A stretch of DNA of 64,000 bases from positions 1 through 64,000 of the forward strand of contig JAHELC010000005.1 in assembly GCA_024644405.1 (NCBI GenBank). Direction: 5' to 3'. A program made the translations under genes and the position numbers. Shown here piece after piece: positions 43,297-47,278 of the stretch (the first letter of the stretch is position 1; every line of letters starts with the position of its first letter). The notes below the pieces were generated by a model. The model had not been told where the DNA came from. It did no database searches and was given only the letters and a program-made list of their open reading frames with translations. The stretch comes from Nitrospinaceae bacterium. Its GTDB lineage: Bacteria; Nitrospinota; Nitrospinia; Nitrospinales; Nitrospinaceae.

Positions 43297-44694
43297 TCAG
43301 CCGTATTGGATTTCGTTTTCAAGGTTCGGGGCGATGGGATGAGGGGTGCCGGCTTCCCGGACATACCGGTTCGTATTTTGAGCGTTCAATTTTTCGAACA
43401 GAAAGTGAAACTTGGTTTCCAGTTCTTTTCCGATTTCGGTTTTGATTGCATCCGAGAGATTCCAGAACTGGGATCGAAACGGTCCAAACCCTTTTTTACG
43501 GGTTTTGTAGATGAACTGTTCGTCGGTCATGCCGGATTTTTTCTCTCCGGCGAATGCCTGGTGCAGGTGGGCGTAAATTTCTTTTTTAAAGTCTGGGGGA
43601 AAATGCGAACTGTCATAAATCATATTCTGAAAATCGGTGGCCAGGTGTATTTCCGCTGTTTCCAGTTCCGGAAATTTATGGAACAGGTCAGCGGGCAGGG
43701 TGGAGGCCCCATGCTGGACCGCTCCCGCCAGATGATAATGCTCCCGTGAGATGCGGGACAGATTTTCCAGAGTCTCAAAATCCAGTTGCACTTCGGCAAC
43801 AGTGCCGTCCGGCAGTGGAACGCCGCCGTGACTGGTCCCGGTCTGGATGGAGATTTTGCTGATGCCCTTATGGCTCGGATTGACCTTCGCGAGGTCCTCA
43901 TTGAAATTATCCATATAGGCCCGGAGTTCCGCTTCATTGCTGTTCTCCTTGCCGACTTCCCCGATTTCTCCTCCCACTGAAATTGTCACACCTTTCGGTT
44001 CCTGTTCGCGGACAAATGAGGTCAACTCCACGCCCACTTCATAATTCAACCGTTGTTGTTCATTGACGTCTTCAAAATCGAGGGAAACCAGGGTCGAGGT
44101 ATCGATGTCGATATTATAAAATCCGGCGCTGATAGCTTCTTTGATAAGCGCTTTGAGTCCGTTGATCTCTTTATTCCGGTCCTCGTGATATTTTTTGGCG
44201 TTCACCTGGAAATGATCGCCTTGAACGAACACCGGGCCGCGAAATTGTTCTTTGATGGCAGCTGCCAGAATGACTGCCATCAACTCGTGGGGTCTTTGGA
44301 AGGTATACTCGATTTCCGATTTGGCGATTTCAAAAATAAACGCGCCGCAATCGGTGGTTTTGGCCGTCCGGAAAATAGCGCGGGTCATCTCATAGGGCAA
44401 TCCGCGGATGTTCAGGGCGGGGACCGTGTAGCCTTTGTTTTTCCCACGGCCACGGGCTTCATAGAGGTCTTGAATTGAGGCGGGGATGATCCCCATTTCC
44501 TGTGCCACGGATTTGATGATGTGGCGGCAATGCGCTCGAATTTCCCCATTGGGGTTTAAGACGGAATTTTTGACCAGCGCGTCCAATGGGGTGCCGCGCA
44601 ATTTATCGGCATTTTCTATATGAACGGAACCATTGGATAAGCTCACCATGCTTTTGAGGTGATGAGTCAGTTCCTCTTTTCCGGAAAATATCAT
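43297..44694 (-). CDS. Class II fructose-bisphosphate aldolase family protein
   Basis: The 465-residue protein has the class II aldolase barrel: YTVPALNIRG near residue 89, FVQGDHFQVN with the zinc-binding Asp-His (usually LDH), VSVGGEIGEVGKE, and the phosphate-binding TGTSHGGVPL followed by QHGAST. These enzymes split fructose 1,6-bisphosphate into triose phosphates. It is about 100 residues longer than the common forms, mainly an N-terminal extension of about 85 residues and a longer C-terminal helical part. A tagatose-bisphosphate aldolase or another sugar-phosphate aldolase is possible. Its upstream region faces that of the USP/PCP_red gene. Confidence 0.75.
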   Translation of the reverse strand: MIFSGKEELTHHLKSMVSLSNGSVHIENADKLRGTPLDALVKNSVLNPNGEIRAHCRHIIKSVAQEMGIIPASIQDLYEARGRGKNKGYTVPALNIRGLPYEMTRAIFRTAKTTDCGAFIFEIAKSEIEYTFQRPHELMAVILAAAIKEQFRGPVFVQGDHFQVNAKKYHEDRNKEINGLKALIKEAISAGFYNIDIDTSTLVSLDFEDVNEQQRLNYEVGVELTSFVREQEPKGVTISVGGEIGEVGKENSNEAELRAYMDNFNEDLAKVNPSHKGISKISIQTGTSHGGVPLPDGTVAEVQLDFETLENLSRISREHYHLAGAVQHGASTLPADLFHKFPELETAEIHLATDFQNMIYDSSHFPPDFKKEIYAHLHQAFAGEKKSGMTDEQFIYKTRKKGFGPFRSQFWNLSDAIKTEIGKELETKFHFLFEKLNAQNTNRYVREAGTPHPIAPNLENEIQYG

Positions 44695-45070: not shown

Positions 45071-45098
45071 TTGACACCCCCCATATTTTTGCTAGAAT
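45071..45098 (+). promoter_or_regulatory. Strong sigma-70-type promoter for the USP/PCP_red gene
   Basis: TTGACA at 45071-45076 and TAGAAT at 45093-45098 are 16 bp apart. The start would be near 45105, giving a leader of about 120 nt before ATG 45224, which is preceded by AGGGAGAG. Confidence 0.7.
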
Positions 45099-45223: not shown

Positions 45224-47278
45224 ATGTTCAAAAATATTTACATTCCAGTCGATAACTCCGACTACTCGAATGAGTGTGTTGAGCTGGCTTTGCAGTTTGC
45301 CAAAGGATCGGAGGACACGGTCATTTCAGCCAGCCATGTTTATGCGGCTAAAATGCATGACGTTCGATTTCGCCAAATGGAAAGTGGCTTGCCTGAGGAA
45401 TACCAGGATGAGCAGGAACTTGAAAAGCAACGGGCGATTCATGACCAACTCATCACCAAGGGGATGGAGGTTATTACCGATTCTTACCTGGATGTACCCA
45501 AATACAAATGTAAGGCGAACAACATTCCTTTTGTCGGCAAATCACTGGAAGGACGGAACTGGATCGAACTGGTCCGGGATATTAAGGAGTCCAATTACGA
45601 TCTGGTAATCATGGGAGCCCTGGGCCTGGGCGCCATCAAGGACAGCCAGATGGGGACCGTGACGGAGAGGGTCATTCGCCGGATCGAAACCGATACCCTG
45701 ATTGTCAAAAATGTGCCAGCCATTCACGAACAAAAATCTTCCAGCGACAAAATCGTAGTTGCCGTGGACGGCAGCGGCCACGCTTACGGCGGGTTGAAAA
45801 CTGCCATCGACATGGCGAAGGCCCTGAACAAGCCCCTCGAAGTGATTTCCACTTTCGATCCGTATTTTCATTACGCCATGTTCAACAGCCTGACCGGCGT
45901 TCTCTCAAAAGATGCCGCCAAGGTATTCAAATTTGAACAGCAGGAAAAACTGCACGAAGACATCATCGACAAAGGCCTCGCCAAAATTTACCAGTCCCAC
46001 TTGGAAGTCTCCCGCAAAATGGTGGAAGATGAGGGAATGGAATGCACCATTCGATTACTGGACGGTAAAGTATTCGAGAAAGTCCTGCAGTACGCCCGCG
46101 AAGAAAATCCCTATATGTTGATTCTTGGGCGGATCGGGGTTCACAGCGCGCCGGATATGGACATCGGCGGCAACACCGAAAACCTGCTTCGCCTGGTGCC
46201 GTGCAACGTTTTCCTCTCCAGTAAAGTTTACAAGCCGCCGATCGATATGCTGGCGGAAGAAAGCATCGACTGGACCGCTGAAGCGAAAGAACGCTTGAAA
46301 AAGATTCCGGGATTCGTGCGCCCCATGGCGACCTCCGCGATTCTGCGCTACGCCCTGGAACGGGGTCACAGCATGATCACCTCCGGCGTTATTACCGAAG
46401 CGTGTGAAAAGATTCTGCCTGCCGGAGCGATGCAGGCCATGTACGGCATCGGTGATCAGATGCGCGAGAAGGTGGCCCGAGGCGAAGATCCGCTGGAAGG
46501 CATGATCGAGGACCGGAGCCGGGCGATGGAGGAAAAATTTGCTGCAGAAGTCGCCAAGGTTCAGGAAGAAAACAAAGTTAAGGATCAGAAAACGCTCAAA
46601 TGCAACGAGTGCGGCACCATCGTCCCCGAAGATGTGGTGAAGTGCGGTGTCTGTGGCGCCGGAGCCGAGAGCCTGTTCGCCATGGACAAATCAGGATTCC
46701 AGGCCGACAGTGACGAGAAGAGCGATTCTACAACCGTCACCACTTTCGACTCGGTGCAGGTGACCTGGACGCAGGATGCGTTGGATTACCTGAATCAGTT
46801 CCCCGAAGGCCATATCCGGAGACGTGCCCATGCGCGAATCGAGAAAAATGCACGGGTGCAGAAAGTCTCCACCATTTCAGTGGCTTTTGCCAAGGAACTG
46901 CTCAACGATAAGCAGGCGGGTGATACCCAATCAACGAAGGGCAACGGCAACGGTGATAATACGACTGAGCAGCCTGCCGAGGGATACAAAGCTTACGGAG
47001 ATTTGCCTAAATTCGAAGGTAAGAATTTCAGTAAAGGCGTTGAAATTGATCCCACTCAATATTTCTGGTCCGATGATGCGATCGGCCGGGTTGAGAAAGT
47101 TCCCAAAGGCTTCATGAGAGACAACACCATGGAGCGGGTGTTGGATTATGCCCATTCCCAGAACACCAATCACATCAACTTGGAGTTTTGTGAAAAAGGG
47201 ATCGAGGAATCCGTCAAGGTCATGAACGAACTGGTCAAAAACGGAGCGACCCTGGAAGATTTTCTCCCGCAAAAGTAA
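45224..47278 (+). CDS. Tandem universal-stress protein fused to three PCP_red-like domains and a zinc ribbon
   Basis: The 684-residue soluble protein starts with two UspA domains (about 1-165 and 175-335). The first has the ATP-binding G-x2-G-x9-G-T pattern in GALGLGAIKDSQMGTVT; the second has GRIGVHSAPDMDIGGNTEN. Then follow short helical modules like the C-terminal domain of light-independent protochlorophyllide reductase subunit B (PCP_red, DPOR type): WTAEAKERLKKIPGFVRPMA near 348, VTWTQDALDYLNQFPEGHIR near 512, and FWSDDAIGRVEKVPKGFMRD near 612. Between the first two lies a zinc ribbon (CNEC-x10-CGVC, near 460). It has its own strong promoter and no photosynthesis genes nearby. The role is not known; sensing of redox, stress or a tetrapyrrole is a guess. 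Confidence 0.85.
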   Translation: MFKNIYIPVDNSDYSNECVELALQFAKGSEDTVISASHVYAAKMHDVRFRQMESGLPEEYQDEQELEKQRAIHDQLITKGMEVITDSYLDVPKYKCKANNIPFVGKSLEGRNWIELVRDIKESNYDLVIMGALGLGAIKDSQMGTVTERVIRRIETDTLIVKNVPAIHEQKSSSDKIVVAVDGSGHAYGGLKTAIDMAKALNKPLEVISTFDPYFHYAMFNSLTGVLSKDAAKVFKFEQQEKLHEDIIDKGLAKIYQSHLEVSRKMVEDEGMECTIRLLDGKVFEKVLQYAREENPYMLILGRIGVHSAPDMDIGGNTENLLRLVPCNVFLSSKVYKPPIDMLAEESIDWTAEAKERLKKIPGFVRPMATSAILRYALERGHSMITSGVITEACEKILPAGAMQAMYGIGDQMREKVARGEDPLEGMIEDRSRAMEEKFAAEVAKVQEENKVKDQKTLKCNECGTIVPEDVVKCGVCGAGAESLFAMDKSGFQADSDEKSDSTTVTTFDSVQVTWTQDALDYLNQFPEGHIRRRAHARIEKNARVQKVSTISVAFAKELLNDKQAGDTQSTKGNGNGDNTTEQPAEGYKAYGDLPKFEGKNFSKGVEIDPTQYFWSDDAIGRVEKVPKGFMRDNTMERVLDYAHSQNTNHINLEFCEKGIEESVKVMNELVKNGATLEDFLPQK

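Follow-up and report, generated by a model that had tools for sequence, protein, structure and literature searches.

A tandem universal stress protein with three PCP_red modules in Nitrospinaceae, possibly the hub of a PCP_red-tagged haem-synthesis set

We analyzed a window of 64,000 nucleotides from a Nitrospinaceae bacterium and found that one of its genes, an intact open reading frame of 684 amino acids with coordinates exactly as in the initial annotation (45224–47278, forward strand), joins two universal stress protein (Usp) domains to three PCP_red modules and a four-Cys ribbon, and that this gene is linked to a PCP_red-tagged haem-synthesis gene set. The link appears in the architecture of the protein (hereafter Usp-PCP_red), in its common module, in an operon with a radical SAM-PCP_red gene in relatives and in the haem genes of its own genome. 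With a probability of roughly 45%, we propose that the protein is a Usp/ATP-regulated hub of a PCP_red-tagged set for late haem (perhaps sirohaem) synthesis; ligand binding, docking partners, control by ATP and an oxygen switch are the parts of this proposal that we infer. The earlier suggestion of a stress-active scaffold or ligand sensor is plausible, and on the present evidence haem synthesis would be the process that it serves. The features of the gene are as follows.

45071–45098, forward strand: sigma-70 promoter-like site, TTGACA-16-TAGAAT with an extended –10 (TGcTAGAAT); 11/12 matches
45224–47278, forward strand: Usp-Usp-PCP_red-Zn ribbon-PCP_red-PCP_red protein, 684 aa; domain profiles and full-length homologues across Nitrospinota
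45224–45709, forward strand: Usp domain 1 (aa 1–162), G-x2-G-x9-G-T intact; best Usp stretch 1–162; G131, G134 and G144 invariant
45347–45517, forward strand: helical insert of Usp domain 1 (aa 42–98), highly conserved, HVYAAKxHDxRFxQME...LPEEY...QRxIHDxLIT; invariant alignment columns; model helices 42–54 and 63–98
45749–46222, forward strand: Usp domain 2 (about aa 176–333), end of ATP motif degenerate (G315-G316); second Usp stretch, boundary via homologue L095, fold match to tandem Usps
45866–46030, forward strand: helical insert of Usp domain 2 (aa 215–269), conserved, DPYFHYAMFNS...QEKLHEDIIDKGLAKIYQxHL; invariant columns; model helices 215–224, 229–235 and 240–269
46271–46399, forward strand: PCP_red module 1 (aa 350–392); 58.1 bits, Usp-free profile
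46592–46660, forward strand: four-Cys zinc/rubredoxin-type ribbon (aa 457–479; C460, C463, C474, C477); Zn_Ribbon_1 0.0048, under cut-off; Cys invariant
46766–46894, forward strand: PCP_red module 2 (aa 515–557), second helix Arg-rich; 17.3 bits
47066–47197, forward strand: PCP_red module 3 (aa 615–658); 29.8 bits; secondary structure like other modules

The Pfam Usp profile (PF00582) matched the protein in two stretches (4.5e-30, 105.5 bits, cut-off 24). The ATP-binding motif of the first domain, G131-x2-G134-x9-G144-T, is intact, and its three glycines are invariant in 27 aligned homologues, which bears out the earlier reading of two UspA domains, one of them with an intact ATP motif. In the second domain, the motif is G302-x2-G305-x9-G315-G, the final S/T being replaced by G316; judging from this motif, the domain is likely to be without canonical ATP binding. 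Both domains contain long helical inserts, in which many residues are invariant in the 27-homologue alignment, and the first fold match for the Usp half of a full-length model was the ATP-bound tandem Usp TTHA0350 (3ab8). The near-consensus promoter, with its extended TG, was likewise found upstream; when the upstream regions of 12 Nitrospinaceae were aligned, about 10 visibly retained it. A misassembly or a wrongly joined reading frame was ruled out by full-length homologues with 70–93% identity in many genomes.

PCP_red is named after a chlorophyll-synthesis enzyme, and we know of no established function of its own; our literature search, which covered mainly open-access papers and in which names with underscores are poorly searchable, found nothing on PCP_red outside phototrophs. 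The Pfam profile (PF08369) matched Usp-PCP_red in three stretches (5.3e-26, 90.8 bits, cut-off 32.5), so that both the Usp and the PCP_red models exceed their curated cut-offs. When an independent profile was made from 204 modules of proteins without Usp, modules 1, 2 and 3 scored 58.1, 17.3 and 29.8 bits, and the best of 2000 shuffled C-termini scored 11.6. Modules 2 and 3 are individually weaker than module 1, yet lie above all 2000 shuffles, and chance matching of these two modules was thereby ruled out. A model of residues 340–684, of moderate confidence (mean pLDDT 67; module cores about 80), predicted the order strand-helix-helix-strand-helix in all three modules. Using this model, Foldseek returned 2kru, 2l09 and 2ynm chain D as the first three PDB matches (probability 1.00 each), and the best module agreed with the solved PCP_red folds at an rmsd of 1.6–1.9; these structures are the PCP_red domain of Chlorobium BchB, Asr4154 of Nostoc and DPOR subunit B, respectively. 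The fusion to three PCP_red modules therefore stands, since all three match the profile and are modeled alike, with solved PCP_red domains as the top matches. Only their signature, formerly given as W/F-x2-A/D, is corrected here to W-[TS]-x-[ED]-A ... P-x-F-x-R ... A ... I-[TS]. The four-Cys ribbon also lies where it had been placed, between modules one and two; its two CxxC pairs (C460/C463 and C474/C477) are invariant in the 27 homologues, and its Pfam scores are under cut-off. A light or chlorophyll role is unsupported, since domain profile searches found no nitrogenase-like (Oxidored_nitro) part in the 684-amino-acid protein; BchB models match it only via their C-terminal 50 or so residues.

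Four further PCP_red genes are present in the same genome. They encode a triple-PCP_red protein; a Zn-ribbon-PCP_red protein (ZnR-PCP_red), whose gene lies immediately downstream of one for an Mrp/NUBPL-type ATPase; a radical SAM-SPASM-PCP_red protein (rSAM-PCP_red), the genome's sole AhbD-family match, with intact CxxxCxxC and SPASM cysteines; and a protein with an N-terminal PCP_red module and a chlorite-dismutase/HemQ domain (HemQ-PCP_red; Chlor_dismutase 1e-57). The best NCBIfam name is HemQ_actino for HemQ-PCP_red (140.7 bits, under the 235 cut-off) and NirJ2/AhbD for rSAM-PCP_red, also under the curated cut-offs; the reactions of both, assigned by best family from scores of this kind, are not certain. 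The genome also encodes HemY (334.9 bits) and ferrochelatase (281 bits); in this 96% complete assembly, HemF was not found and HemN scored under its cut-off, a pattern that fits the coproporphyrin-dependent route. The last step of that route, from coprohaem to haem b, is performed by HemQ or AhbD (PMC7242693). Because these two families perform the same step, the two unrelated enzymes with the same PCP_red module probably act on the same porphyrin. The description of Usp-PCP_red as having no tetrapyrrole gene nearby is correct within the window and misleading beyond it, as haem enzymes are among the PCP_red genes of its own genome. Domain profile searches found no HemQ, AhbD or HemY catalytic domain in the 684-amino-acid protein, and on sequence grounds it is tied to haem enzymes solely through the common module and gene order.

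The conserved residues of PCP_red are structural (W, A, L, P, F, R), and the module alignment contains no conserved His or Cys and no obvious haem ligand; haem coordination by PCP_red itself was rejected on this basis. For the same reason, porphyrin contact, if any, would be made via hydrophobic and arginine residues. The main rival to the hub reading dispenses with a ligand: PCP_red may be a protein-docking tag, such that the tagged enzymes and the Usp hub form a haem-synthesis complex whose assembly is regulated by Usp. This is favored by the structural nature of the conserved residues, none of them a metal ligand, by the occurrence of PCP_red in several otherwise unrelated protein types, and by the resemblance of arrays of three to five copies to multivalent scaffolds. 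However, most surface positions differ between the modules of different partners and no one surface stands out as a common docking site, and we consider ligand-free docking possible but rather unlikely.

The Usp-PCP_red gene was found in 63 of 77 Nitrospinota genomes (29/31 of the good ones), some of the relatives' genes being cut off by contig ends, and homologues also occur in Nitrospirota and on one contig labelled Chloroflexi. The architecture is thus found in both Nitrospinota and Nitrospirota, as the initial annotation had proposed to survey, with one PCP_red copy in an early Nitrospinota family (f9) and up to five in Troglogloeales. ORF lengths suggest that the same set of five PCP_red proteins is widespread in Nitrospinota. 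HemQ-PCP_red was verified in L251, a further Nitrospinota genome, and in four genomes of Nitrospirota. In the Usp tree, two genomes labelled Gammaproteobacteria (L085) and Nitrospirota (L086) group within Nitrospinales and are probably mislabelled bins.

The gene order in relatives was then compared with that in Nitrospinales. In 13 genomes of Nitrospirota and family f9 (L095, L096, L138, L182, L184, L188, L189, L190, L205, L207, L238, L239 and L243; the contigs of L138, L188 and L207 begin inside the Usp gene), rSAM-PCP_red lies directly after Usp-PCP_red on the same strand, with an overlap of up to 49 bp or a gap within about 100 bp. Neighbor genes were called by a codon-usage heuristic, and their starts may be some codons off. 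The rSAM-PCP_red proteins of family f9 score 457–459 bits against the AhbD (haem b synthase) model, whose cut-off is 500. HemY (290.7 bits, cut-off 97.85) is next after rSAM-PCP_red in L188, and HemQ-PCP_red adjoins HemY in L198. Several clusters also contain the Mrp ATPase, ZnR-PCP_red, a PCP_red array and a TenA/Haem_oxygenas_2 protein, and the ZnR-PCP_red/Mrp pair lies near sirohaem synthase in L203 and L204, in the former also near NIR_SIR reductase and ATP sulphurylase genes. Nitrospinales loci show no such linkage to haem genes: here the gene is flanked by a class II aldolase-like gene on one side and an MsbA-like ABC transporter gene on the other. In other words, it stands alone in that order only, and in relatives it forms an operon with rSAM-PCP_red; the initial annotation had only the dispersed arrangement to go by. 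When a tree was built from the Usp part, loci with the Usp/rSAM pair lay on both sides of the midpoint root; an ancient pairing with later loss in Nitrospinales is therefore probable.

Further features of these loci were observed. The aldolase-like gene of the window (43297–44694, reverse strand; F_bP_aldolase 62.9 bits) is the divergent neighbor in most Nitrospinales loci. Two early Nitrospinota genes (L246:2195–3625 and L247:5182–6609) encode three PCP_red modules, a rubredoxin-like ribbon and Haem_oxygenas_2 (TenA/PqqC-like) in one protein. The Usp/rSAM genes are often followed by one for a small membrane protein resembling CopD/UPF0093(HemJ), mostly with scores under the Pfam cut-off (L137:9580–10086, L138:2286–2735, L140:11627–12070 and L182:7831–8355). 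The Usp-PCP_red locus adjoins cytochrome b/bc genes in L137 (13965–19917; bc genes by eye), and a cytochrome bd-like oxidase and cytochrome b in L142 (11582–16074; labelled Chloroflexi). In three Nitrospirota with few PCP_red copies, a single ZnR-PCP_red (L192:6874–7275, L193:6617–7000 and L194:6051–6443) lies beside leuD-like and likely B12-type radical SAM genes; PCP_red is therefore not everywhere tied to haem genes.

These neighborhoods could also be read as a set for radical SAM or iron-sulphur maturation of a non-haem product, in which Mrp and the Zn-ribbon protein would load clusters and Usp-PCP_red would be a radical SAM accessory. The Mrp-type ATPase beside ZnR-PCP_red, the intact CxxxCxxC and SPASM cysteines of the radical SAM protein and its scores below both the AhbD and the NirJ2 cut-offs agree with this reading, which nevertheless leaves HemQ-PCP_red, the HemY neighbors and the sirohaem genes unexplained and which we judge improbable. 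Least probable is a general stress or hypoxia regulator, whose ATP-binding Usp pair would control other proteins, with a non-tetrapyrrole PCP_red ligand and a haem link that is incidental gene order: the Usp fold with its intact first ATP motif, the gene's own promoter and unrelated neighbors in Nitrospinales, and the increase of UspA proteins in Nitrospira marina at low oxygen (PMC8115632) speak for it, but coincidence is an unlikely explanation for the adjacency to rSAM-PCP_red in 13 genomes, which lie on either side of the midpoint root of the Usp tree, and for the presence of PCP_red in HemQ as well. The increase of several UspA proteins in that study would also suit an oxygen-linked role, if Usp-PCP_red is among them.

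Under the hub reading, PCP_red would be a small add-on module common to HemQ-PCP_red, rSAM-PCP_red, ZnR-PCP_red beside the Mrp-type iron-sulphur ATPase, and the PCP_red arrays. The arrays may bind a porphyrin intermediate or serve as docking sites for the tagged enzymes, and ATP binding may let the Usp pair sense the energy state. As oxygen changes, the hub would direct coprohaem to HemQ, which depends on oxygen or peroxide, or to the radical SAM enzyme, which needs no oxygen, and toxic intermediates would stay bound to the hub. Besides the haem genes and gene orders described above, the fusion of PCP_red to Haem_oxygenas_2 and the fold match to ATP-bound 3ab8 favor this reading; the lack of a conserved His or Cys in PCP_red, the HemQ and radical SAM scores under the curated cut-offs, the unlinked gene of Nitrospinales and the ZnR-PCP_red genes beside leuD-like genes weigh against it. 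A broader version, in which Nitrospinota and Nitrospirota complete the last haem step via a complex of PCP_red-tagged proteins in which HemQ (oxic) and an AhbD-like enzyme (anoxic) can replace each other, with PCP_red as the porphyrin carrier and the tandem Usp as an ATP-reading hub, is unlikely as a whole; if true, such a carrier complex would also account for the role of PCP_red in protochlorophyllide reductase. No description of a PCP_red-tagged haem set was found in the open-access papers searched. The presence of PCP_red in HemQ, an AhbD-like enzyme and a stress protein of nitrite-oxidizer lineages makes porphyrin or mutual binding directly and cheaply testable, and it is rare for a universal stress protein to be linked to a definite pathway. 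The proposal would also suggest how haem-rich bacteria of these lineages sustain haem synthesis while oxygen falls.

Finally, we compared Usp-PCP_red with known systems. Members of both the HemQ/ChdC coprohaem decarboxylase and the AhbD haem synthase families carry PCP_red in the same genome, whereas Usp-PCP_red has neither enzyme domain and is a genomic companion rather than a member. With DPOR subunit B (BchB/ChlB; 2kru and 2ynm chain D) and the stand-alone Nostoc protein Asr4154 (2l09), it has the PCP_red profile and fold in common; unlike BchB/ChlB, it lacks Oxidored_nitro, contains three PCP_red copies and is not a phototrophy gene. The closest likeness of its other half is to the tandem Usps (UspE, Rv2623 and TTHA0350), which also have two Usp domains in tandem, the first-domain ATP motif being intact here; the tandem Usp folds 3ab8, 3loq, 3cis and 5cb0 match this half at E-values of about 1e-11 to 1e-12. 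In contrast to those proteins, both Usp domains of the present protein contain long, near-invariant helical inserts, and about 350 additional residues form the PCP_red modules and the ribbon.
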